From Chitinophagaceae bacterium (lineage in GTDB: Bacteria; Bacteroidota; Bacteroidia; Chitinophagales; Chitinophagaceae): a DNA stretch of 64,000 nt. The stretch lies in NCBI GenBank assembly GCA_019638615.1, contig JAHBTL010000013.1, positions 1-64,000 of the forward strand, read 5' to 3'. Position 1 is the stretch's first letter. Each line of letters opens with the position of its first letter. The notes under the pieces were generated by a model, which was given only the letters and a program-made list of their open reading frames with translations, was not told the DNA's origin and made no database searches. A program made the translations under genes and the position numbers. Positions 30,965 to 48,951 of this stretch are shown piece by piece.

Positions 30965-31564
30965 CTACTCTCCCAATCTCACCCCGTCATATATTTCTGT
31001 AACGGCTATTACTTCATTAACCGCTTTTATATGAAGCTGATCCTCTAATGAATTATATTCTTCCAGTTCCCAGCGGTGAGCGCCATTCAGGCGGAACGTC
31101 TCAATATGTACGTGTTCGGAATCTATCAGTATATATTCTTTCAACGTGGGTATATCGCGGTATAGCATGAATTTTTCACCACGGTCGTAATTTTTGGTTG
31201 AGGGAGAAAGCACTTCAATTAGTACAACAGGATTCAGAATATTCCAGTTATCATTATTAAGTGTAGCATATTCACCACAAACAACGGATATATCCGGGTA
31301 AGTAAATAAAGTGTTTGATTCAATATGAATACGTTGGTCGCTATTATATGGTCTGCATTTCTTTCCTTTTAATTTTTGATGCAGCACGGCATATACATTT
31401 CCGGATATTCGATTATGCGGCACTTTGGAGCCCGACATGGCAAATATCTCCCCCCTGTAGTACTCATGCTTTTCAACAGCAGCCTCTTCCATCGCCAGGT
31501 ATTCTTCGATGGTGAACTTTTGCCTGCCGTAGGCAACTGCAGGTTCTCTTAACTCCATATCCAT
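30965..31564 (-). CDS. Uma2-family (DUF820) PDDEXK protein
   Basis: A 199-residue protein with the Uma2 order: [11 protein letters not shown], a [13 protein letters not shown] block, the [10 protein letters not shown] acid and [20 protein letters not shown], giving the D-x-ExK-like core. Uma2 proteins are very common in cyanobacteria and Bacteroidota, and their biological role is unclear. The N-terminal [10 protein letters not shown] is encoded by a shortened relative of the TGCCTGCCGGCAGGCA palindrome. It marks the left edge of the accessory region. Confidence 0.8.
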
Positions 31565-31762
31565 GTTATAAAAATACTCATTATTTGCAGAAAAAGATTA
31601 CACTATTGCATTTTACCGCAAACGTCCAACCAGAACCGTAAGGCTTTCTTTTACTTACCAGTTCAGCTCGGGTAAAAAGATGCAGGCAAAAAATATTGAT
31701 GCGGGTGGGCAGGAAGAGAGGGGGAGGGTGGGGAACTGAGGGAAGGATACCCGGTGCTGGGT

Positions 31763-31815
31763 GTAAAACGTGAAAGTTTCGTTTCTCGTCTCACGTTTCA
31801 CGACAACGCATCAAC
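31763..31815. repeat. dispersed noncoding repeat, copy 1
   Basis: This segment (GAAAGTTTCGTTTC, CTCACGTTTCACGACAA) closely resembles 49903-49965. It lies in the 315-base gap between the Uma2 gene and dinD, which otherwise contains a purine-rich stretch and no gene. Confidence 0.6.
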
Positions 31816-31879
31816 ATCGTTTGAAACACCGAGCGGATAACCATTTCGTTGGCTTCAACGGAATGGTTGATACTGTCTT

Positions 31880-32716
31880 TTATTTTTTCTTCTTATTTCC
31901 TTTCAGTAACTTTTTCTCATCACCATCCAATTTTCGCTGTAGTTTTTTTACATCTTCGGCGGGTGGCAGATTTTCAGGTACAATGCCACGCTGGGTAAGC
32001 ATATTTCGCACCGCGAGGTTATTGTCAATATGCTCTTTTTCAATTTTGTTCTGCCCTTTCAGGTCTTTGTTTTGCACATTCAGCCCGGTCATTTCGGCTG
32101 CAAGGTCTTTAGCTTTAATACTGATGGTGGGTAAAAAATCAGCAACAGGCCGGCTATCGGGTATACCCATTTTCTTTTTAAGCATTTGCGTATTAAGCCG
32201 AAATAAGGCCTGGTCGCCTTTGCTCCTGATTATTGCAAATCCCTGGCTATCCACTCCCCGTTCATACAAAATGCCCGAAAGTTGTTTTTCGGTCTGACTT
32301 AGCTTTTCTCTTGCCTTTACCCGTTCATATTCCAATAGTCTTTGCTCTACCAGTTCTGCACGGCGGGTTTGCACGGCAAAATAATTTTGGGCAAATGCTA
32401 TTTCCACCTTACGGCTATCACCATTTTGAGCAATAAGGTAGCAGGCGTAGCGGGTTAAAGCAATGTCATTGATTTCTCTTTCCGTATCTGAACCAATTTC
32501 GACCATTTTCCTGACGTCGGGAAAATGGTTTTCTATTTGCTCACCTGCATTTTCACAGGCATCTTTAGCTTTTTGAATTACCTTTTCAAAGTTTTCCCAT
32601 TTACTGTACCCCAGCAGAGTTTGCAATTCCCTTGCACTCCAGCATTCAACGCCTTCCAACTCAGCAGCAGCAGCTTCAAATCGTTCAAAAAGTTGTTTTA
32701 TTTCTTCTGATTTCAT
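31880..32716 (-). CDS. dinD: DNA-damage-inducible protein D
   Basis: A 278-residue DinD homologue. A BRO-N-like N-terminal domain has WSARELQTLLGYSKWENFEKVI and TRYACYLIAQNGDSRK. The C-terminal region has LYERGVDSQGFAIIRSKGDQALF and NMLTQRGIVPENLPPAEDVKKL, then a lysine tail. In Escherichia coli DinD is an SOS gene product that acts on RecA filaments. No LexA box was found here. A second, frameshifted relative lies at 41632-42449. Confidence 0.85.
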   Translation of the reverse strand: MKSEEIKQLFERFEAAAAELEGVECWSARELQTLLGYSKWENFEKVIQKAKDACENAGEQIENHFPDVRKMVEIGSDTEREINDIALTRYACYLIAQNGDSRKVEIAFAQNYFAVQTRRAELVEQRLLEYERVKAREKLSQTEKQLSGILYERGVDSQGFAIIRSKGDQALFRLNTQMLKKKMGIPDSRPVADFLPTISIKAKDLAAEMTGLNVQNKDLKGQNKIEKEHIDNNLAVRNMLTQRGIVPENLPPAEDVKKLQRKLDGDEKKLLKGNKKKK

Positions 32717-32835
32717 AGCACGCTAATTTAACCTATTTATTTTTTCACACCATTTCGATAAGATATTCGAAATGATTTTTATTCTAAAAATCAATAGCAG
32801 AAATATTGTCAAAAAGTTTCGTAACAAGCATTTTA

Positions 32836-32951
32836 CCAGGATTTAACAATTACACATACTCGCCGAATATGTATAATTTACCGCGTTGCACCCCTGTAAC
32901 TTCTTTTACTATTTCCAGCTTTTCCAATAGCGGCATAAAATTATATGCCGG
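32836..32951 (-). pseudogene. C-terminal remnant of a Fic-family protein
   Basis: The 375-base gap between dinD and the TOTE gene contains a minus-strand reading MPLLEKLEIVKEVTGVQRGKL, followed by YIFGEY, a stop, and LLNPGK. This matches the C-terminal winged-helix region found after Fic domains (LEKLGIVKEVTGxQRNRLY). The Fic catalytic domain is absent. The rest of the gap shows no gene. Confidence 0.5.
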
Positions 32952-33092
32952 TTTTAACGACAATCAACAATAGCCGGCATCGTTATTTTACTTTTTTAGG
33001 AAAAACGACAATAACAGGAACTCTAATTGTTGTTTTTCTCCACCTCAAACATTCTTCCGATACCCGTTTATTGCCACATTTTAACCTCACCA

Positions 33093-36000
33093 TTAAACCA
33101 ATCTTTCCTCCAGCATATCTTTCCAAAGGATAAATCCTTTCTGATCATCGGAATAATCGTGGAGAATACGGTTGAAATTTTCCGGCGGATTTGTCAGAAA
33201 ACTTTGCCGGCCCTGCTTCCTGATAGTATCCAGGTGATTATCTATTTCCTTCAGCCTTAACGGTAGTTTGGAAACTATTTTGGGAAAACGCCAAAGATAG
33301 CTGGCCTCCTCCGTATCCAAAGTTTCTAAAATGATATGGAACTGTTCAGCTCCTTCCAAAAGAAACACAAAAGAAAAAGGTTGTAATATAAATCTCACTT
33401 TCACCAAATGCCCCGCATGATTATCAGCCAGGTATCGCAAATGCCTGTGATGTTTGAATTGGGGATGCTTTAGCACGTCCTCCAGCAGCTCTTCACCTGA
33501 TTCATATAAGGAATGACTTGTTTGAAGCTGCTGACCTGCATCATTTTCCCTATCAGGATTTGTCCGCCCAAACAAAGGTTTAGTGACAAACTGAAAACGA
33601 ACGCCTTCAATAATTTGCCGGCCTATCTTTTTAATATCTTCTGAACTTGCAAATTGAGAGACTAATTGTCCATTTTCTGCTTCTGCGTATATAGCTACAT
33701 TAATATGCTTAGATTTTATAGCCTTGATAAAATATGGTTTTAGCACTTCAAATTCAGGGCGGATATCATTATGCTCAATTTCAAATTCAATTTGAAGATT
33801 CAATTCGGTGGCTGTGTAGGTAAAAGCAATGCTGCCATACCTGAACTCTAATGACTCTATGGCGACATTTACTTGCCGGTCAATCGTTACAACAGTATTT
33901 CTTTCAGGAGGAGCATCACTTTCTTCAACAGGGTCATCAAATAAATTCGCCTGCTTTTCCAATTTTCTGTAATACACGTTTCTTTTTAAAAACATCTTAT
34001 TGAGATAGTCAACCTTAATATCACGGTAGTCATATATAACCGGTGTAATTTCTGATCGCTGTACCCTGCCAATATACTGTATTAATTTGCCTTCAAAAGA
34101 GAAAGGATATACCAGGAACAGACAGGAAGTATTTTGAAGGTCGGTTCCCTCCCCGAAAAACTGCCCTGTTGTAATCAGAGCCTGGTAATTTCCTGCATTC
34201 AGCACTCTCCATTTGGTAGTTCGGCTGCTTTCAGAATCCTCACCACTTAATGTTATGACCTCATACGATTGTTTTAGATATTGCTGCAGCGAATCAATAT
34301 GTTCTTTTCGTTCTGTAAGTATAACTACCTTTTTGCCGCTATTCAGCTCATTGGTAATGTCATTCAAAATCAGTTTGTTCCTGGAAGAATCATGTACCAG
34401 GATCTTCGATAAAGTTTCAAACCTGTCTGTTTTGGAATTGAATGGAACATCAAGTTCTGTGTTTCTTACAACAACAGAAGCCTGCTTGTGCCTGCCGGTT
34501 TGCTGTGCTGTAATTTCAGCGATTATTTCCCCGAGATGAATAAAGATCAGTTTGCCGTCATTGTATTTCCGAAAAGGTGTGGCTGTCAATCCGTATAAAT
34601 AATAGCTATTGAACTGGTGGATTGTTTTTCTGTAGCTCTCAGCAGGAATGTGATGACATTCGTCAACCAGTATTGTTCCGAATGTATTTTTTAATGCTTC
34701 ATTTTTTTCAATTTCTTTAGCCAGGCTTTGAATAGTGGCCACGGTGACGTGTTTGCCTGTTTTTGATTTTCCCTTTCCGATTTTCCCTATTTCTTGTTGG
34801 GGAATTCCCAGGAAAGCCTCAATCCTTTCGATCCACTGATCCATCAACTGTTTCCGGTGAACCACTATTAATGCAGGTTGTTGCTTGTCTGCAATGATCT
34901 TTAATCCAATCACTGTTTTTCCTGATCCCGGCGGCGCAACAATCACTCCCATATCTTTCCTGCGCGTTGCTTCAAGGGCAGGTACCTGGTAATCTCTTAA
35001 CATTGCCTGAAACTTAAATAAAACAGGTACTTTCTTTTGCCTGTCATCTTTAAAGCTGTAAGCAATACCGGTATCTTTACAAAATCTTAGTGCTTTACCT
35101 GCAAAGCCTCTTGGTAAAATAACTTCGTCTTCAGTTTCTTCTATAAACCTGAAATAACGTTCTGTTCCAAAAGTATTCTTCCCGGCTTTCTTTTTTATGA
35201 TAAATGCCGAATTAGTGAAATTCAATTCTTCCTTCAAAAAAGTGATGAGTGTAAGCGGTATTGCTGAGCGGGTGAACCGTAAAGCATTATCTAATGATGC
35301 AATCAGCTCGCCGCTACCTCCGGGTGCATTGTTTTTTGCTTTGCTGTTGCCGGCTTCTGAAATAGAGTGGTATATATCCTCCAACAGTCTTATGTCCACC
35401 CTTTCAATCCTCGAAAGAAAATTCCATTGATCGGGAAATGGTATCAATGTTTCCGGATCAACGAAGCAACTGTTTCCTTCGTCTAATGCAGGCTTATGTA
35501 ATGGCAATGCTATCAGATTGCCAAGTCCTTTTCCGGAAAGCGTATCCTGGTTAGGAAACAGCCTGTCAAAGCTTGAATTCTTATCAAATACCGAAATCAC
35601 CCCCGATTCTGTAAGGATTGAAAGGAATATCTTTCTGCTCCTGGTTGCAGCATAAGGTTGGCTGAAAAACACCCACACATGCCCTCCCTTACCAGAACGG
35701 GAACGCTCCAGGTATGCAGGTATATTTTTGGCTTTGCAATATTCTATGAATTTTTGGCTGTCGGCTATCCAGTTCTGCTCATCAAAATCAGCAGCAATAA
35801 ACCATGATGTATTGTTTTGTAATAAAGGATATACTCCTATAAGCTGCCCGCCGTTCAAATGTTTTATAAGCTGGTCATCCGTAAGCGGTAAATATTTTTT
35901 ATCAGTGTATGACTGAAAAGTACCTCCTTTCATCTTATGAGCCTTGTATCGGTAAGGATCATACAAATAAGCGGGCATATAACCGCTCTTCCCTTCCCCA

Positions 36001-36107
36001 CCCGGAGAACCGGCGGGTATTTCCCAACGAGTTGCAAATACATCTTCCCGGCCTTTGAATAGGGAGCTGAATAGCTGCAATTTTCTATCTATGCGTAGTT
36101 CTGACAA
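33093..36107 (-). CDS. TOTE-type primase-helicase (AEP domain fused to SF2 helicase)
   Basis: A 1004-residue protein. The N-terminal archaeo-eukaryotic primase domain (about residues 15-280) shows WFIAADFD and RSGKGGHVWVFF. A superfamily-2 helicase follows, with Walker A VIVAPPGSGKTVIGLK, the DECHH box (ILVDECHHIPA), GLTATPFRK and motif VI QYIGRVQRS. The C-terminal third has no family I recognise. In TOTE conflict systems such primase-helicases occur with nucleases and other effectors in invader/host conflict. It starts with TTG, since no ATG precedes the conserved region, and lies 10 bases after the Schlafen-type gene, so the two are probably co-translated. Confidence 0.8.
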   Translation of the reverse strand: MSELRIDRKLQLFSSLFKGREDVFATRWEIPAGSPGGEGKSGYMPAYLYDPYRYKAHKMKGGTFQSYTDKKYLPLTDDQLIKHLNGGQLIGVYPLLQNNTSWFIAADFDEQNWIADSQKFIEYCKAKNIPAYLERSRSGKGGHVWVFFSQPYAATRSRKIFLSILTESGVISVFDKNSSFDRLFPNQDTLSGKGLGNLIALPLHKPALDEGNSCFVDPETLIPFPDQWNFLSRIERVDIRLLEDIYHSISEAGNSKAKNNAPGGSGELIASLDNALRFTRSAIPLTLITFLKEELNFTNSAFIIKKKAGKNTFGTERYFRFIEETEDEVILPRGFAGKALRFCKDTGIAYSFKDDRQKKVPVLFKFQAMLRDYQVPALEATRRKDMGVIVAPPGSGKTVIGLKIIADKQQPALIVVHRKQLMDQWIERIEAFLGIPQQEIGKIGKGKSKTGKHVTVATIQSLAKEIEKNEALKNTFGTILVDECHHIPAESYRKTIHQFNSYYLYGLTATPFRKYNDGKLIFIHLGEIIAEITAQQTGRHKQASVVVRNTELDVPFNSKTDRFETLSKILVHDSSRNKLILNDITNELNSGKKVVILTERKEHIDSLQQYLKQSYEVITLSGEDSESSRTTKWRVLNAGNYQALITTGQFFGEGTDLQNTSCLFLVYPFSFEGKLIQYIGRVQRSEITPVIYDYRDIKVDYLNKMFLKRNVYYRKLEKQANLFDDPVEESDAPPERNTVVTIDRQVNVAIESLEFRYGSIAFTYTATELNLQIEFEIEHNDIRPEFEVLKPYFIKAIKSKHINVAIYAEAENGQLVSQFASSEDIKKIGRQIIEGVRFQFVTKPLFGRTNPDRENDAGQQLQTSHSLYESGEELLEDVLKHPQFKHHRHLRYLADNHAGHLVKVRFILQPFSFVFLLEGAEQFHIILETLDTEEASYLWRFPKIVSKLPLRLKEIDNHLDTIRKQGRQSFLTNPPENFNRILHDYSDDQKGFILWKDMLEERLV

Positions 36108-40260: not shown

Positions 40261-40914
40261 TCACAATCCATTATTGTGTTTTGCTACAGTTTCCACAAAA
40301 TCTTCTTTAATAAATTCCCAGTGCTTGCCCAAAAGACAAACAGGGGTAAAATCATCTTCAGCGATACTAAAATCAGTAAGATTGTGAAGAATGAGTTTTT
40401 CATCGTGGTTAAATTCATAACGCTGAAGATGGAATTGCAACATTTGTTGAATAGAATAATGCTGTAATAATTCGTGCAGATCCCAAAAGTCTTTCTTGCG
40501 ACCGCCACGTTGTACAATATCAATTTTCATTGCTATAATTTCTTCAACAGAAGCAAGACGTATTCCATCTATAATTTTGGATGGCTGTATAAATGGGTCA
40601 GTATAAAACACATCAACCTTAATAGCGTCATCAGTATTTGCACCTATTATATATGATTTGCCCAACCCCGGATTGATATCTTTAAAGTGTTGCAGGTAGG
40701 TAAAATTATTCTTTAAGAAATGTTCTATAGCGTCAAAATCAATATTACCATAAGGCGAGTCACTGAAAAGGTCTATATCAACAGATTTCCTATACCCTAA
40801 CTGTAAACTCAATGCTGTACCACCTACTAACCGGAACTGGTTAAATGCAGGTGCAGCCATTAGCTGCAAAAGTATTTGCCTGAGTGGAACACTTATGGTA
40901 TTGTAATACAACAT
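40261..40914 (-). CDS. AbiEii-family nucleotidyltransferase toxin
   Basis: A 217-residue nucleotidyltransferase. The catalytic motif is FRLVGGTALSLQLGYRKSVDIDLFS; IKVDVFY supplies the third acidic position, followed by LASVEEIIAMKIDIVQRGGRKKDFWDLHEL. AbiEii and related proteins transfer nucleotides to targets such as tRNA and cause reversible growth arrest or phage abortive infection. The gene lies 17 bases after a HigA-like antitoxin gene on the same strand, so it forms a two-gene TA unit. ATG 40914 is the start. Confidence 0.85.
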   Translation of the reverse strand: MLYYNTISVPLRQILLQLMAAPAFNQFRLVGGTALSLQLGYRKSVDIDLFSDSPYGNIDFDAIEHFLKNNFTYLQHFKDINPGLGKSYIIGANTDDAIKVDVFYTDPFIQPSKIIDGIRLASVEEIIAMKIDIVQRGGRKKDFWDLHELLQHYSIQQMLQFHLQRYEFNHDEKLILHNLTDFSIAEDDFTPVCLLGKHWEFIKEDFVETVAKHNNGL

Positions 40915-41631: not shown

Positions 41632-42449
41632 TTATTTCTTCTTTTTAGGTTTTAATTGTTTTGGTTTAGAAGTTTTTCCCAACTTTTTAATGCTATCCGC
41701 TGCCGGCAGGTTTTCAGGCATAGTTCCTCCAGGTTCCTGTATGGTTTTGTGTACTTTTTTGCCTACTTCAAAATGTGTTTGATTGGCATTGTGTTTACCT
41801 TTTATATTTTCCCTGCGTAATTTTTCCTCTGTTTGTGTAGCCCTGAAAAGGTTGGCTGCCAGTTCGGTACTACCCATGTGATCAGGTATTTGCTGGCTTT
41901 TAGCGAGCCCTTTTCTTTTGTGTATGCCTTTGGCATCAAGCCCGCCATACAAACCCATGTACCCATGATTTTGAAAAATGGCATAATCAAGCGAAGTAAT
42001 TACACCTGCATTTTTGGCAGCAGCTAAATGTGTGTTGTGCTTAGACATTTCATTACGCAGGAAAACTCTTTTTCATCTTCGGTACTAAGGCGGTTATAGG
42101 CTTCCATCTGCGTTATTTCCTGCAACCTTGTTTGCACGGCAAAATAACTTTGTCCTAGCGCTACTACTTCTTTAGAGGGATCGGCATTTTGTACAATTAA
42201 ATAACAGGCGTAGCGGGAGAGTTTATAGCTTGTATAGGTTTGCTTTGCTCCCTGCCCGGCAATTAACACCTCGTTGGCTTCAACGATGTGTTCCAGAGGG
42301 TTGTGACCGCTGTTTTTGCAGGCTTCAATAGCTTTTTCTATTACGCCTGAAAAATTTCTAAAATCGGTATAATCAAGTGTTTTAGCAAGTTGTCTTGCCA
42401 TCCAAAATTCATTACCGTTTTCATCAGTCTGTTTAATTTGTTCAAACAC
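41632..42449 (-). pseudogene. frameshifted second dinD-like gene
   Basis: Two adjoining open frames make one DinD. The first (GTG 42449) gives MFEQIKQTDENGNEFWMARQ, FRNFSGVIEKAIEACKNSG, YACYLIVQNADPSKE and LSTEDEKE. The second gives MSKHNTHLAAAKNAGVITS, IFQNHGYMGLYGGLDAKGI and GTMPENLPAADSIKKLGK. The intact join would read DEKRVFLRNEMSKHN; a run of five As where six are needed causes the -1 shift near 42070. It may be a true pseudogene, a sequencing slip, or a slippery phase-variable site. Confidence 0.8.
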
Positions 42450-43064: not shown

Positions 43065-43883
43065 CTATCCTAAATCTATCTTTCTGTTCTCAACTTTAAA
43101 TTTATCATCTAAGTTTATTAGATTATACAAAGATGTCCCTAAATGCCGTCTTGAATTTTCATCAAAAACTTCGATATGAGCTTTTGCTCCTGCATGTTTC
43201 ATAGCACTATCCACTACCCATAATTCATTAGTTCCTTTTCTTTTGTAAACTATACGACCATTATTTCTAGGGTAGTTGGTTTTTTCAAAAAGCGTATCAT
43301 CTTTTAATACTGTTTGAAAATCTGCAGGAGCGGTTCGAGAGTTTTCATCATAAATTTCCTCGGGATTAATAAACCCTCTATTAATAAGCCAACTTTCGAT
43401 CTCTTCTGGAGTTACAACAGCATCAACTACAATCGAATCCGCTTTGTTTTTTAAAATGGTAAGGCTCGGTTCATTTCCAAACTTTGACTCACTAAAATTT
43501 AATAGGAACCCGTAAAAATTTTGAGAGACTAAAGTTCTTTCAGAAATTTCGGCTACAGAGGTAGTTACAAAATTTTCATCGTTATATTCATAACTACAAG
43601 AATTGTCGTGTATTTGATCTTTTTGCCAACTTTTAGGAGATAATTTATCCAGGTTTTCAGAGAAAACTCGATTTAAAGGAGGATTATTTTTTATAACTGA
43701 ATCAAAAAAAGAGCCCTCTATTCCTGTATAATAAAAGAAATGATCACTTTTGAATGTATCTTTTTCATTTTTAATTTCACTAATCCTTTTTAAGGATGAT
43801 ATGAACACCTTCAATGAATTAAAAAAATGAAGTTGCTCATTATATTGACCGTGTAATGAAGTCTCGTTTATGAATAGTTGCAT
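43065..43883 (-). CDS. orphan 272-residue protein, last gene of the methyltransferase-DUF262-DUF3696 operon
   Basis: I do not recognise this protein. No signal peptide, membrane helix or Walker motif is visible. The N-terminal half is mixed alpha/beta (HFFYYTGIEGSFFDSVIKN, ISERTLVSQNFYGFLLNFSE). A VTPEEIESWLINRGFINPE helix leads to a short C-terminal domain with NNGRIVYKRKGTNELWVVDS, HAGAKAHIEVFDENSRRHLG and a final YNLINLDDKF. That C-terminal pattern of strand, W and aromatic acid with conserved His and Arg residues loosely recalls small RNase-toxin (BECR-type) domains, but this is only a resemblance. It starts one base after the DUF3696 stop (TAATATG), so it must be made with that ATPase. 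It could be the effector. Confidence 0.8.
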   Translation of the reverse strand: MQLFINETSLHGQYNEQLHFFNSLKVFISSLKRISEIKNEKDTFKSDHFFYYTGIEGSFFDSVIKNNPPLNRVFSENLDKLSPKSWQKDQIHDNSCSYEYNDENFVTTSVAEISERTLVSQNFYGFLLNFSESKFGNEPSLTILKNKADSIVVDAVVTPEEIESWLINRGFINPEEIYDENSRTAPADFQTVLKDDTLFEKTNYPRNNGRIVYKRKGTNELWVVDSAMKHAGAKAHIEVFDENSRRHLGTSLYNLINLDDKFKVENRKIDLG

Positions 43884-43884
43884 A

Positions 43885-45156
43885 TTAAATCCCTAATAAA
43901 TAATTCAAATCTCTAGTAGCTTGATCAAAAAAGTCTTTTGGCCAGTTATTTACACCACCTTCTTCATCAATGTTTATTTTATCAAAAAGCTTATCATTTT
44001 TGTTGTCGAAATATAGAACATTTGTTTCTTCGGAACTTACAATAGAGTCCTTCACAGTAATTCTAAATCCATTAAGAATATGTTCACTATGTGTTTCCAC
44101 CAAAACTTGTACTCCGGCTGCAGAAACTAGACCTAGAAATTTTGCTAATATTGATTGTGCATAGGGGTGTAAGTGTGCTTCCGGGTTCTCAACAATAAGA
44201 ATCTCGCCCGACTTAGCTATTAAGCCTGCAACAATAATAGGTAATGAATAACTAAATCCATATCCAACATTTGTCGGTTTGAAATATGAGCTTTTACCAT
44301 CAGAATTAATTCTTAATTTCAATAAATCTTCACCTTTTATTGGTTCAACCTGAATTTTTGCTCCTTGAAATATTTTGTCAATCCAATAATTTGTATTGTC
44401 TTCAATTGTCAAGCTAAGATCTTCAATGTTTTCTCCAAACATTCTACTATATCCTTCTAATACAGTTTTGTTTACCTTATCATTTCCTTTATGATGTAAT
44501 ATATTAACGGTATTTTCTCCTAATGCTCCAACACTAACAAAATGATTTAAGGATTTATTTTCGTAGTAATTTTTAGGTCCGATTCTATCAGCAGAGACAT
44601 AATGTACGCCAATAAAATTGATTCCCAATTTAATATTTTTGATATTTTTTTGTTGGAAATATTGCTCTATTGTAGCATCTCCTAAAAACAAATCGAATAA
44701 AGGGTATTGCAATTGTTTCTCTTCCGTATTAGTTAATGTCTTCGAATCTGAAAACGCTTGATACCATTCATCAGTTCTTTGCAGTTCAATCTGTGTTGCT
44801 CCACATTTTGATTTGATAGTTTCAATAAATACTTCGGAGGCATCTGCGTTATCATTATACAAATAGTAATCAATTGAAAACTGATCATATTCAAATCCAA
44901 AATGGATTTTTTCAGAAAAGTTGGTTTCCTTGTTTTTTACATCATCAAAACTTCCAAGTTTTACATTATCACCATTAAGAAAAATTTTATTGGTAGCTCT
45001 ATTTGTAAGAGCAGACTGACTTAAAAGTAAAAAAACCTGTAAAACTGTTGATTTCCCTCTACCATTAATTCCGGTAAATAAATTTAAACTGGACAAAGGA
45101 ATTTTTACGTTTTCCTTATACAATTTAAAGTTGTCTATAGATACTTGTGTTATCAT
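43885..45156 (-). CDS. DUF3696-type AAA/ABC-like ATPase
   Basis: A 423-residue SMC/ABC-like ATPase. It opens with ITQVSIDNFKLYKENVKIPL and the Walker A GINGRGKST. A C-terminal Walker B (ILIVENPEAHLHPYAQS), the D/H-loop VETHSEHILNGFR and the DUF3696 ending (EEGGVNNWPKDFFDQATRDL) follow. Relatives are the ATPase partners of several defence loci and of OLD-like nucleases. The start codon overlaps the stop of the DUF262 gene (TAATG), and the next gene follows after one base, so the stoichiometry may be fixed by coupling. Confidence 0.87.
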   Translation of the reverse strand: MITQVSIDNFKLYKENVKIPLSSLNLFTGINGRGKSTVLQVFLLLSQSALTNRATNKIFLNGDNVKLGSFDDVKNKETNFSEKIHFGFEYDQFSIDYYLYNDNADASEVFIETIKSKCGATQIELQRTDEWYQAFSDSKTLTNTEEKQLQYPLFDLFLGDATIEQYFQQKNIKNIKLGINFIGVHYVSADRIGPKNYYENKSLNHFVSVGALGENTVNILHHKGNDKVNKTVLEGYSRMFGENIEDLSLTIEDNTNYWIDKIFQGAKIQVEPIKGEDLLKLRINSDGKSSYFKPTNVGYGFSYSLPIIVAGLIAKSGEILIVENPEAHLHPYAQSILAKFLGLVSAAGVQVLVETHSEHILNGFRITVKDSIVSSEETNVLYFDNKNDKLFDKINIDEEGGVNNWPKDFFDQATRDLNYLLGI

Positions 45157-46739
45157 TATATGTTTAATATTTCAAATGTTTTATTAAACCTTGTTTTAAC
45201 ATTCGTTGGGCTACCTGTTGAAATTCTAATTGATTCTCTAAATTCATTATCTTTCAGAAGACGATCGTAATATTGGTTAATTATATTTTGTTTGTTATTT
45301 GATAACTCTAAATCACTTTTTTTATCAAAGAATACAGATATACATTCCAACAAAGCGATATTTATTCTCCCTCTACTGTTTTCTATTGGTAACCTAAAAT
45401 TATTGCTACCAAAGAATGCAAAAGTTAAATTCATTACTCTTAAAAATCGTCGCTTCAAATCCTCAATTTCTAAATTTGACATCCGGTTAATTCGTCTCAT
45501 TGTTTTGCCTAAAAAGTCATCTAAATCGCCTTTATATTCATCAATTGCATTTCTATTTGAAAAAGCAAAAAAACGTAAGATAGCTTCCCGATCTTTCATC
45601 CTAAGAGAAGGAATACCATTATCAATCGCCTGTCTAAATTCTATTGTTTCAGAGAGTTCTGCAAGCAGGCTTGTTGCGTTCCCTATATAGATACAGTTCC
45701 TTATCTCCTGCCGGGTGAGCGGCGTACCATTGGAATTAATTCTGTTAAAAATGTCATATACTATTGACATTGGCACGGAGGGTTTAAGTACATATAACAA
45801 CAACTCTCTATCTTCAATTCTAGCTTGTAGTTCACTTGGTAAATCAGAGTAAAATTTACCTTTCAAAAGAGGAAGTGCTTCGAGTCCTGCTAATGCGTAA
45901 TCTCCATTTAAAAAATCAAAGATGGCTGATGATCTCTGCAACCCATCAACAATGATCATTTTTCCTTCTAAATCCTGGCTTATGTAAAAAGGTGGAATAG
46001 GTATATTTAAAATAAGAGACTCAATAAATCTACTTTTTTGTTGGAGTTTCCAAACCTGATTTCTTTGAAAAGGAGGGATTACAATTTTATCTTGTTCTTT
46101 CCTTCTTAAAAGAGTTACAACCTGCATATGAGCCTCTTTGATATCTAACTCTTCATTAGTATAATTTGCAGGGTATATACTGCCTTTAGAATCATCTTCT
46201 TCTTCATCAATAATAAAATCTGACTCCTCATCTAATTGGTCATTTATTTTATAAACAGTCTCCCTATCTCCACCAGCTAATTCTCTAATGTCCGAAACTA
46301 CAAGAGAAGAATAAATCAGCCAGTTTATGATCGTGCTATATCTGCGAGCGATGGTAGATTCTGCACCTTCGATAAAATCTCTGAGAAAATCTAATATTTG
46401 TTGACGACTCAGCCCATCTTCATTACTTTCAATTTCCTTAAGTACTTTTTTAAATAAATCATTTTGTCTAAGAATTACTCGAATTTTTTTCAACCGATTT
46501 TCTTCATCAAGTATAATAAGAGATTCTCCTAATTTAGTCAAAGAAGCATTGTTGTTTTCATTTTCAAGCAATCCTAAAATTTCCGCGGCTAATCTGTAAT
46601 ATCTTCCTTGTCGATCAGTGAAACCGACATAATCTGCTATTTTCTGATCTGTCTTATAATCATTATATACTGCCTCTACAGCTATTATTACTTTACTCAA
46701 TTCATCTGCCTGAGGCACTTGTGTTATAGATATTTTCAT
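45156..46739 (-). CDS. DUF262-domain protein with an N-terminal winged-helix (DUF7226-like) region
   Basis: A 527-residue protein. The N-terminus (KIADYVGFTDRQGRYYRLA, LGLLENENNNASLTKLGE) resembles the small winged-helix domain found in several type II restriction proteins. The DUF262 ParB-like domain (about residues 200-400) shows VIPPFQRNQVWKLQQKSRFI, the DGLQRSSAIFDFL motif (usually DGQQR) and FNRINSNGTPLTRQEIRN. DUF262 proteins such as GmrS and SspE use nucleotide hydrolysis in type IV-like restriction. No HNH/DUF1524 nuclease domain is attached, so a separate effector is needed. Confidence 0.87.
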   Translation of the reverse strand: MKISITQVPQADELSKVIIAVEAVYNDYKTDQKIADYVGFTDRQGRYYRLAAEILGLLENENNNASLTKLGESLIILDEENRLKKIRVILRQNDLFKKVLKEIESNEDGLSRQQILDFLRDFIEGAESTIARRYSTIINWLIYSSLVVSDIRELAGGDRETVYKINDQLDEESDFIIDEEEDDSKGSIYPANYTNEELDIKEAHMQVVTLLRRKEQDKIVIPPFQRNQVWKLQQKSRFIESLILNIPIPPFYISQDLEGKMIIVDGLQRSSAIFDFLNGDYALAGLEALPLLKGKFYSDLPSELQARIEDRELLLYVLKPSVPMSIVYDIFNRINSNGTPLTRQEIRNCIYIGNATSLLAELSETIEFRQAIDNGIPSLRMKDREAILRFFAFSNRNAIDEYKGDLDDFLGKTMRRINRMSNLEIEDLKRRFLRVMNLTFAFFGSNNFRLPIENSRGRINIALLECISVFFDKKSDLELSNNKQNIINQYYDRLLKDNEFRESIRISTGSPTNVKTRFNKTFEILNI

Positions 46740-46740
46740 A

Positions 46741-48612
46741 TTATTTCGCTATAAACAAATATTCTTTTACTGTATTGGCATTATTACCAACTTTATGATT
46801 CTGATTGCCAAATGAATATTGATAATCTATCTCCTTTAGTTCGACATCTTTTTTATATTTATTAAGAAGCTCTTTCATTTCTTCTTTTGATGGTATTGAA
46901 TTAGACGAATACGATACTACTAAAATACTATCCTTAAATTTATTAAATAACTTATCTAAGGCTTCATTGACAGTACTTTTTGAATCAAAAGGAGATTTAT
47001 ATTTGTTAAATTTTTTGGTTTTTGTCGATTGATCAATTACTAATCCTTTCCAATTCTTTACCAACCCTTCCACAAAATGGTATCTTCTTGTATAATCGTT
47101 ATCGGATTTTGAAGTAAGATAAGGGGGGTCAAAATATACTAGATCCGCCTTAATATCTATATCAAAAACATCACAATTGAATGACTTATTGGATTGCCCA
47201 TTGTCAAATACAGCATTATTAAAGCTATCCACATTTTCTAAAAAATGCTCTTCTAATGATAATTGCAAATCTCGGCGACCATCATCATATCTAGCACCTA
47301 CATATGTAAATATGCCTCTTGGTCGCTTTTTCATACAAGCTCTTGTAATAGCTCCTAGTGCTAAGGCTTTCTTGTGTTCATTGTTCAATAAATTAACATT
47401 AGCAATTATCTTATCAATGAAAGCATTATCCCCATCTTCGAAATACAGGTCTTTAAATGTGTTTTGAACAAAATTGCCGGTGTTTGAATTGTTTGCTAAT
47501 AATATATCAATATCTTGCCGATCAAGGTGAACGCTGGAATTTTCAATTAAAGCTTTAGTAAAGTTTGCAGAAAAGGACATAAAATCGTTTGAGTAAACTT
47601 CGATGCCTTTTTGCTTCAACATGTAGGATACGCAACCGCTTCCGGAAAAGGCATCAAGAGCTGAAGTAAACTCTAAATTTTTTATGTTTTCCCATAAGAA
47701 TGGTAAAATTTTGTACTTACTTCCCATATAGCGTGTGCCAGGAAAATTTTCTAATAGTTCTTGCTTTGCTTCCGATTTTTTTTTGCCATTAATAGAATAT
47801 ATAACAAGATCCTGCCCTATCCGAGTTGAGCTTTTACTACTAATTAATCGTTTGGTATCAAATATCTCAATTTTATGTCCTTTGTATAACTCATGAACAA
47901 ACTCGACATTTGAATTGGTTAATATAACTTTGGCCCCTATTTTTTCCAGCCTGTTGAATTCATCTCTCAATTCAATGTGATCATCATCATAGAAAAAATC
48001 CTTTGTGTATCTCTGAAAATCAGAAAACTTCCCTACCGGCACATAAGGAGGATCTAGGAAAATTAGATCTCCGTATTGTGCATATCTTTTTAATACCATT
48101 TTATAATTTGCACAAATTAATTTAGCCCCTTGAAGAGCCTCATGAGCAGCGTATAATCGGTCTTCATCGCAAAATTGTGGGTTTTTATATCTACCGTAAG
48201 GCACATTAAATTCTCCATTCTTATTTTCTCGGTACAGCCCATTGAAGCATGTTCTATTAAGGTAGATAAATCTTGCTGCACGTTCATTATTATTCAAGTT
48301 TGTTAAATCCATCCCTCTTATTTCATAATAAAATGATTCACTATCATTGAATGTTTTTAACTCAGCGATTAAATTCTCAATATTGTCTCTTACTGCAGTG
48401 TAACAGTTTATCAATTCTGGATTTATATCTGATAAAATAGCCTTAGAAGGACGTAAGTAGAAAAACAGAGCCCCCCCCCCAAGGAATGCTTCTATATATG
48501 TACTGTATTCGCTTGGAATAAATCTGTCTAACACTCCTAATAATTGAGTCTTTCCACCTGCCCATTTTAAAAATGGTCTTACCATTCTTTGTTTACTTTT
48601 TATGTTGATCAT
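46741..48612 (-). CDS. two-domain N6-adenine DNA methyltransferase (M.FokI-like fusion of two D12 domains)
   Basis: A 623-residue protein made of two Dam-type (D12 class) domains. Domain 1 has FLKWAGGKTQLL (14-25), the SAM motif FLGGGALFF (43-51) and DPPY (187-190). Domain 2 has YMGSKYKILPFLW (295-307), the SAM motif AFSGSG (321-326) and a second DPPY (495-498). This layout matches M.FokI, whose two domains methylate the two strands of an asymmetric site; the target here cannot be read from sequence. Residues 45-48 are encoded by a run of ten Gs, so the frame is open only at this tract length. The DUF262 gene starts one base after the stop. Confidence 0.88.
   Translation of the reverse strand: MINIKSKQRMVRPFLKWAGGKTQLLGVLDRFIPSEYSTYIEAFLGGGALFFYLRPSKAILSDINPELINCYTAVRDNIENLIAELKTFNDSESFYYEIRGMDLTNLNNNERAARFIYLNRTCFNGLYRENKNGEFNVPYGRYKNPQFCDEDRLYAAHEALQGAKLICANYKMVLKRYAQYGDLIFLDPPYVPVGKFSDFQRYTKDFFYDDDHIELRDEFNRLEKIGAKVILTNSNVEFVHELYKGHKIEIFDTKRLISSKSSTRIGQDLVIYSINGKKKSEAKQELLENFPGTRYMGSKYKILPFLWENIKNLEFTSALDAFSGSGCVSYMLKQKGIEVYSNDFMSFSANFTKALIENSSVHLDRQDIDILLANNSNTGNFVQNTFKDLYFEDGDNAFIDKIIANVNLLNNEHKKALALGAITRACMKKRPRGIFTYVGARYDDGRRDLQLSLEEHFLENVDSFNNAVFDNGQSNKSFNCDVFDIDIKADLVYFDPPYLTSKSDNDYTRRYHFVEGLVKNWKGLVIDQSTKTKKFNKYKSPFDSKSTVNEALDKLFNKFKDSILVVSYSSNSIPSKEEMKELLNKYKKDVELKEIDYQYSFGNQNHKVGNNANTVKEYLFIAK
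48471..48480 (-). repeat. G10 homopolymer in the SAM-binding motif of the methyltransferase gene
   Basis: Ten consecutive Cs on the plus strand read as GGG GGG GGG G in the gene, coding for the glycines of FLGGGALFF. A change by one or two bases would frameshift the gene after about 45 codons. The rest of the window has no G/C homopolymer of this length. Confidence 0.95.
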
Positions 48613-48738
48613 TATTTTATACGAATAAAGTAATTAATGTATAATAATTCATTTGGTTATGAGGGGTGAGAGTTGGATTTTATTACCCACCACTTAATAT
48701 TAATGATTATAACAATAATTGTCGCATTTTGCTTTTGT

Positions 48739-48951
48739 TCAATTTGCTTTCAACTCCCTGTACAGTGCTTCCAGCAAATCACACGGAGCCACATCTATAG
48801 CAAGTGCTATTTTGTACAATTCTTCAGCCTGAAGCCGGGTCGAGGGATTCAATGATAATTCGCTGATTCTTGCCTTACTCAATCCCGTTTTACGGGCTAT
48901 TTCTGATTTATTAACTGATTTTTGGGCGAGATATAGACCGAGTTTTGTCAT
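48739..48951 (-). CDS. small XRE-family transcriptional regulator
   Basis: A 70-residue HTH protein (MTKLGLYLAQKSVNKSEIAR, KTGLSKARISELSLNPSTRL, ALAIDVAPCDLLEALYRELK). Size and position recall the controller (C) proteins of restriction-modification systems. It lies 126 bases upstream of the methyltransferase gene on the same strand. Repeated motifs at 48962-49070 directly before it could be its operator. Confidence 0.82.
   Translation of the reverse strand: MTKLGLYLAQKSVNKSEIARKTGLSKARISELSLNPSTRLQAEELYKIALAIDVAPCDLLEALYRELKAN

Follow-up and report, generated by a model that had tools for sequence, protein, structure and literature searches.

Within a 64,000-nt stretch of a Chitinophagaceae bacterium genome (GCA_019638615.1, contig JAHBTL010000013.1; here called the window) lies an operon of five genes that is probably a hybrid between a restriction-modification (R-M) system and NsnABC, a set of three genes that we take to be Menshen, in which a restriction-type recognition domain is grafted onto NsnA and unmethylated sites would trigger translation arrest. 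The operon comprises, in order, a small XRE-type gene, a gene for a two-domain adenine DNA methyltransferase (MTase), and the genes of NsnA, NsnB and NsnC. From gene content, linkage, domain homology and predicted folds, we infer a path that would lead from an unmethylated site to protection against phage. The MTase would methylate both strands of an asymmetric site on the host chromosome, a site that is probably AlwI-like, the specificity of AlwI being presumably GGATC. In the simplest account, NsnA would have acquired its recognition domain from a type IIS-like restriction enzyme and would use it to inspect the site of the MTase, and an unmethylated copy on invading DNA would activate the DUF262 NTPase of NsnA together with the NsnB ATPase; once activated, these would release NsnC, whose colicin-E3-like domain would probably cleave 16S rRNA and stop translation. 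The feature that we think decisive, namely the extra N-terminal domain of NsnA, was absent from the initial annotation of this DNA.

That annotation had described five genes on one strand, headed by an XRE gene and with four of them tightly joined, and this layout is confirmed: the five open reading frames (ORFs) are real, 1 nt separates the MTase gene from that of NsnA, the NsnA and NsnB genes overlap by 1 nt, those of NsnB and NsnC are again 1 nt apart, and the XRE gene lies 126 nt upstream of the MTase gene. The four coupled genes have a G+C content of 0.30–0.33 as against 0.42 for the whole window, which suggests that they are acquired DNA. The operon had also been presented as undescribed and its last product as an orphan; both descriptions have to be withdrawn, since the DUF262 protein, the ATPase and the last protein match the PADLOC models NsnA (E 1.4e-117, amino acids (aa) 165–526), NsnB (2.5e-111) and NsnC (4.2e-96) and cover nearly the full length of these profiles. 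The order is therefore already named for three of the five genes; what is unusual is the way in which they are combined with the MTase and with an additional domain on NsnA.

When NsnA is considered beyond its PADLOC match, about 165 additional N-terminal residues are found to match Pfam DUF7226 (67.7 bits, cut-off 27); the VDGLQR motif lies at aa 264. Closer NsnA relatives are mostly ~365–430 aa long and begin near the core, and distant relatives of ~455–500 aa carry other N-terminal stretches. The domain is modelled as a tandem winged helix over its whole length, and when 997 chains were structurally realigned FokI came out best, over 168–172 residues, with N.BspD6I aligning over 159. On these best realignments, the predicted fold of the domain resembles the recognition domains of FokI and N.BspD6I, enzymes that carry a cleavage domain where NsnA has a DUF262 NTPase and to which no sequence similarity is detectable. 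The segment RQGRYYR (aa 43–49) sits in a predicted helix (42–54), and this recognition-helix segment is found in all seven DUF7226 domains linked to a dual or split MTase, while the same segment reads RQ[T/A/H]DYY in all seven linked to single Dam-type MTases (the comparison leaves out L219 and Curtobacterium, which lack such a partner). The residues at the recognition-helix position thus appear to vary with the partner MTase, and DNA binding by the domain is predicted. The idea that it reproduces the recognition region of AlwI was unsupported (nothing by blastp, a weak phmmer result with six sequences, 14.7% by hhalign). Searches of PDB sequences gave a BrxU chain as the best match for NsnA (E 0.26) and no useful match for the N-terminal domain, and a search for this domain in phages was unproductive. 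Viral scans returned one relative with NsnA and eight with the query A2, all restricted to the core, and a single match with the query A3 (L185), in a stretch judged phage-like by eye.

To assess how often the fused arrangement recurs, the 84,980 species of the genome_contigs collection were scanned with a two-row NsnA alignment. Of 82 loci obtained, the best 80 were retained, and 28 loci from a phylum sample bring the total to 108. An NsnA-like ORF is present in 107 of these, L098 being excluded for lack of one, and a single contig enters the count twice, as L095 and L104. Two loci match NsnA from its N-terminus, namely L099 of Flavobacterium anhuiense, at 76% identity, and L100 of the Bacteroidetes metagenome-assembled genome (MAG) UBA7688, at 48%, and both have the dual MTase directly upstream of NsnA and NsnB-NsnC downstream, so that the order pointed out initially does recur elsewhere. 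DUF7226 and the dual MTase co-occur in these two loci and are both absent in the other 105; NsnB is nearby in 87 of the 107. Because the ORF caller retains the longest ORFs, all 108 stretches were searched again by tblastn in six frames, which found the pair in the same two only, and 90 of the 105 negative loci have at least 2.5 kb of upstream sequence. The three Menshen proteins alone make up a complete named system, and the MTase might accordingly be an orphan that came to lie by chance upstream of an ordinary Menshen in a defence island. However, the tight spacing of the coupled genes (1, −1 and 1 nt), the identical order in two other genomes and the association of DUF7226 with the MTase in 2/2 loci versus 0/105 make such a coincidence very improbable.

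The MTase matches the PADLOC type II model PDLC03261 (E 1.2e-238, aa 9–621) and TIGR00571 dam (E 7.6e-81), and has two DPPY motifs, at aa 187 and 495. Judged by sequence, it is of the two-domain type, with a Dam-like half and a second half, that is the usual partner of AlwI-family type IIS restriction endonucleases (REases). On plasmids, 11 full-length matches were obtained and seven were examined (H44, H45, H46 and H50 were left out); in six of the seven records, whose MTases are 39–55% identical, an AlwI-family type IIS endonuclease follows, separated by one small ORF on the L056 plasmid. In the seventh, an Acinetobacter baumannii plasmid (L180), a 152-aa DUF7226 protein stands alone after the dual MTase, in the position of AlwI. 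Among the 12 other matching genomes of the 395-genome phylum sample, nine have AlwI beside the MTase (one gene away in L069). In a tree of MT2, one of the two halves of the MTase, the window and L099 cluster with L210, L211 and the AlwI-linked L064 (support 100/99), while L100 falls with the remaining AlwI-linked enzymes; the DUF7226-Menshen unit has thus apparently been joined to MTases from two branches of one family. As for the head of the operon, a small helix-turn-helix (HTH) gene likewise precedes the MTase gene in L099 (HTH_26 4.2e-5), and XRE/HTH genes are annotated upstream of it in L055, L057 and L180, that of L180 matching no Pfam family and that of L055 having Pfam matches below the cut-off only; none was seen before the MTase gene in L100. 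The 70-aa XRE/Cro-type protein of the window is a probable controller.

DUF7226 also occurs outside Menshen. Among 395 genomes of the class it is found above the cut-off in five other proteins besides that of the window, all of which adjoin D12-type MTases. Three are DUF6996-DUF6997-DUF7226 proteins adjoining a single Dam-type MTase; of these, L070 and L208 were compared with PADLOC, and both match its type II restriction enzyme PDLC03513. In L210 and L211, the DUF7226 gene follows separate MT1 and MT2 genes that correspond to the two halves of the window MTase, MT1 being truncated in L210 where the contig ends. The DUF7226 product matches PDDEXK_9 in its C-terminal part, below the threshold, and has no PADLOC match; these loci (L210 5923–8385, L211 5852–8774) are compact R-M candidates, each with a ~345-aa DUF7226 protein having a putative PD-(D/E)XK end. 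In 199 Flavobacterium genomes, four more DUF7226 proteins were found besides that of F. anhuiense, three with a Dam-type MTase adjacent or within ~1.5 kb and the fourth a fragment on a 4.3-kb contig. On a Halorubrum plasmid the domain is part of an Mrr-type enzyme beside an opposite-strand Dam-type MTase, and on a Priestia megaterium plasmid (L181) it makes up the N-terminus of DndF, encoded downstream of an AlwI M-R pair, the DndF profiles aligning only from aa 188 onward. In L181 (8986–18252), DUF7226-DndF is followed by DndG and DndH, with no annotated DndBCDE genes in the stretch covered. A link to restriction is seen in most of the other DUF7226 proteins examined, and a literature search on DUF7226, DUF6997 and DUF6996 found no paper. 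We give about even chances to a broader reading of DUF7226 as a portable, methylation-blocked recognition module that is put, beside its cognate MTase, onto nucleases (DUF6997, Mrr, PD-(D/E)XK-like), NsnA or DndF. The same proteins bear on the possibility that NsnA acts in an SspE-like manner, sensing the methylated host site and thereby keeping or setting its NTPase activity while another component detects the phage; restriction enzymes that carry DUF7226 beside a cognate MTase are expected to cut unmethylated DNA, and we regard such licensing as improbable.

Several points weigh against the hybrid reading or limit its support. FokI was absent from Foldseek's own list for the NsnA N-terminus, which lowered our confidence, and DUF7226 distantly resembles AAA_assoc_C of transporter-type ABC ATPases, so that restriction cannot be deduced from the fold by itself. 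Two Curtobacterium plasmids carry the domain but have no D12 MTase within 9 kb of it; on one of them an annotated phage-type adenine methyltransferase lies nearby. Three of the 12 MTase-matching genomes (L067, L068 and L070) have no AlwI neighbour. The two positive loci, L099 and L100, are related to each other and therefore do not represent two independent events, and the 20 of 107 loci without NsnB nearby are DUF262 loci rather than Menshen. Finally, the depletion of GGATC is only mild (840 copies observed versus 995 expected on both strands of 460 kb, rank 46 of 1024 5-mers), which makes its avoidance weak as support for the site. In the window together with 396 kb from the rest of its genome, the most depleted 5-mer is GGACC/GGTCC, at 0.66 of the expected number, perhaps owing to another restriction specificity.

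The initial annotation had noted the lack of a classical nuclease. Searches for an AlwI-type gene were negative both in the window (best tblastn E 0.81) and in the 87 contigs of the genome (best E 0.256), AlwI being the one REase family sought across the whole genome. An AlwI REase was not found in F. anhuiense either, and a complete R-M system in one operon with NsnABC is seen in L100 only among the three, where an AlwI REase (RE_AlwI 1e-78) begins 3 nt after NsnC and NsnABC is thus placed between M and R. In nine further loci of the 107 (L147, L154, L155, L158, L159, L163, L170, L178 and L091, identified by phmmer, with Pfam matches examined only in parts of L154, L158 and L163), NsnA, NsnB and a gene in the NsnC position lie between HsdM-HsdS and HsdR, which other ORFs precede in L170; L096 has the Hsd frame with a DUF262 gene and no NsnB match. 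Such a layout of M, module and R, which we take to be that of PrrC, favours a guard role in which Menshen would back up the R-M system and fire when a phage inhibits or degrades R-M proteins, the extra domain of NsnA docking on the R-M complex and not on DNA. As described in PMC2610378, PrrC is kept silent by a type I enzyme linked to it and becomes active through an anti-restriction factor of the phage. In the window genome and F. anhuiense, however, the MTase, DUF7226 and NsnABC are kept though no AlwI REase was found, and apart from DUF7226 the L210 and L211 proteins have no evident candidate for reading DNA, so that we hold guarding to be rather unlikely.

Within the proposed hybrid, the response would depend on NsnB and NsnC. 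NsnB matches Pfam AAA_15, AAA_21 and DUF3696 and has a Walker A motif (GINGRGKS) at aa 29; the PADLOC Old and GajA models match its ATPase part only, and no Pfam match to TOPRIM was found up to E 0.1 among the window proteins. The C-terminus of NsnC (aa ~176–272) is predicted to fold like the colicin E3 rRNase and is a putative RNase domain. Presumably, the catalytic residues of colicin E3-type enzymes are Asp, His and Glu; D225, H230 and E238 are invariant in an alignment, made without superposition on E3, of 15 NsnCs, a result that is partly a matter of choice because 14 of them were selected from 35 for a similar C-terminus (the other is that of the window). Proteins in the NsnC position of L144 (10194–11084) and L084 (5589–6518) have other C-termini, RelE-like by eye only, suggesting that effectors in this position are swapped between loci. 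A PDB sequence search with NsnC gave no useful match, and NsnC searches in plasmids and viral contigs were unproductive, as was a literature search for the catalytic residues of colicin E3.

When compared with known systems, the operon shares with Menshen the order A-B-C on one strand, and differs from 105 of the 107 NsnA-like loci in having both DUF7226 and the MTase. According to PMC10952713, Menshen is a DUF262 system whose resistance is abolished when the DUF262 gene is mutated or deleted, and is linked to a predicted OLD nuclease. With AlwI type IIS R-M systems (PDLC03261 plus the REase PDLC03463) the operon has in common the dual MTase family and, in some cases, a small HTH gene ahead, whereas their nuclease, retained in L100, is missing here. 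GmrSD, BrxU and SspE combine DUF262 with DUF1524, a domain for which the five operon proteins gave no Pfam match, there being no DUF1524/HNH match and the effector being the separate NsnC. In the DndFGH locus of L181, a domain of the same type precedes another defence protein, next to an MTase of the same family; unlike the operon, this locus has Dnd FGH as the effector module and an AlwI REase. Another pairing of DUF262 with a methyltransferase is seen in L092 (8524–11014), where a DUF262 protein with an N-terminal MTaX1 domain adjoins an N6_N4 methylase. Provisionally, then, the operon joins two known kinds, Menshen and AlwI-type R-M, in a new combination. Of what had been proposed initially, the analogy with M.FokI and type IIS enzymes is supported, the marking of self by the MTase is probable, and a non-classical restriction or abortive response is supported as a reading.

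Table 1. Features of the operon, which occupies window positions 43065–48951.
Feature	Coordinates	Strand	Matches
XRE/Cro-type HTH gene, 70 aa	48739–48951	minus	Pfam HTH_26 1.2e-9
Two-domain adenine-N6 DNA MTase, 623 aa	46741–48612	minus	PADLOC PDLC03261, TIGR00571
NsnA, DUF262/GmrSD_N (ParB-like NTPase) with extra N-terminal domain, 527 aa	45156–46739	minus	PADLOC NsnA
NsnA aa 1–165, DUF7226, predicted tandem winged helix, FokI-recognition-domain-like	46245–46739	minus	
NsnB, ABC/SMC-like ATPase with DUF3696, 423 aa	43885–45156	minus	PADLOC, Pfam
NsnC, N-terminal part and predicted C-terminal colicin-E3-like RNase fold, 272 aa	43065–43883	minus	

In the surroundings of the operon, a Bro-N domain protein is encoded directly downstream (42024–42449, Pfam 6e-10) and an AbiEii-like gene lies close by (40261–40914, PADLOC 7e-12). 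Farther away, the type I specificity-like PADLOC candidates PDC-S03 and PDC-S13 are matched by genes at 30965–36107, where a protein of 1004 aa also matches PADLOC defence models that contain PrimPol and helicases. A second, distant DUF262 gene is present in the same genome (G000:C1:212194-213135, 31% identity, E 4.1e-32).

The variant provides Menshen with a defined candidate trigger, namely an unmethylated site set by the linked MTase, and with a defined candidate reader domain, by which sensing becomes directly testable. If the hybrid reading is true, restriction-type recognition of self and non-self would drive abortive infection and not cleavage, and a role would be suggested for DUF7226, which Pfam lists as a domain of unknown function. 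If the reading of DUF7226 as a portable module is true as well, R-M self/non-self recognition would be a plug-in for differing immune effectors, with a ribosome-targeting abortive response here replacing DNA cleavage.
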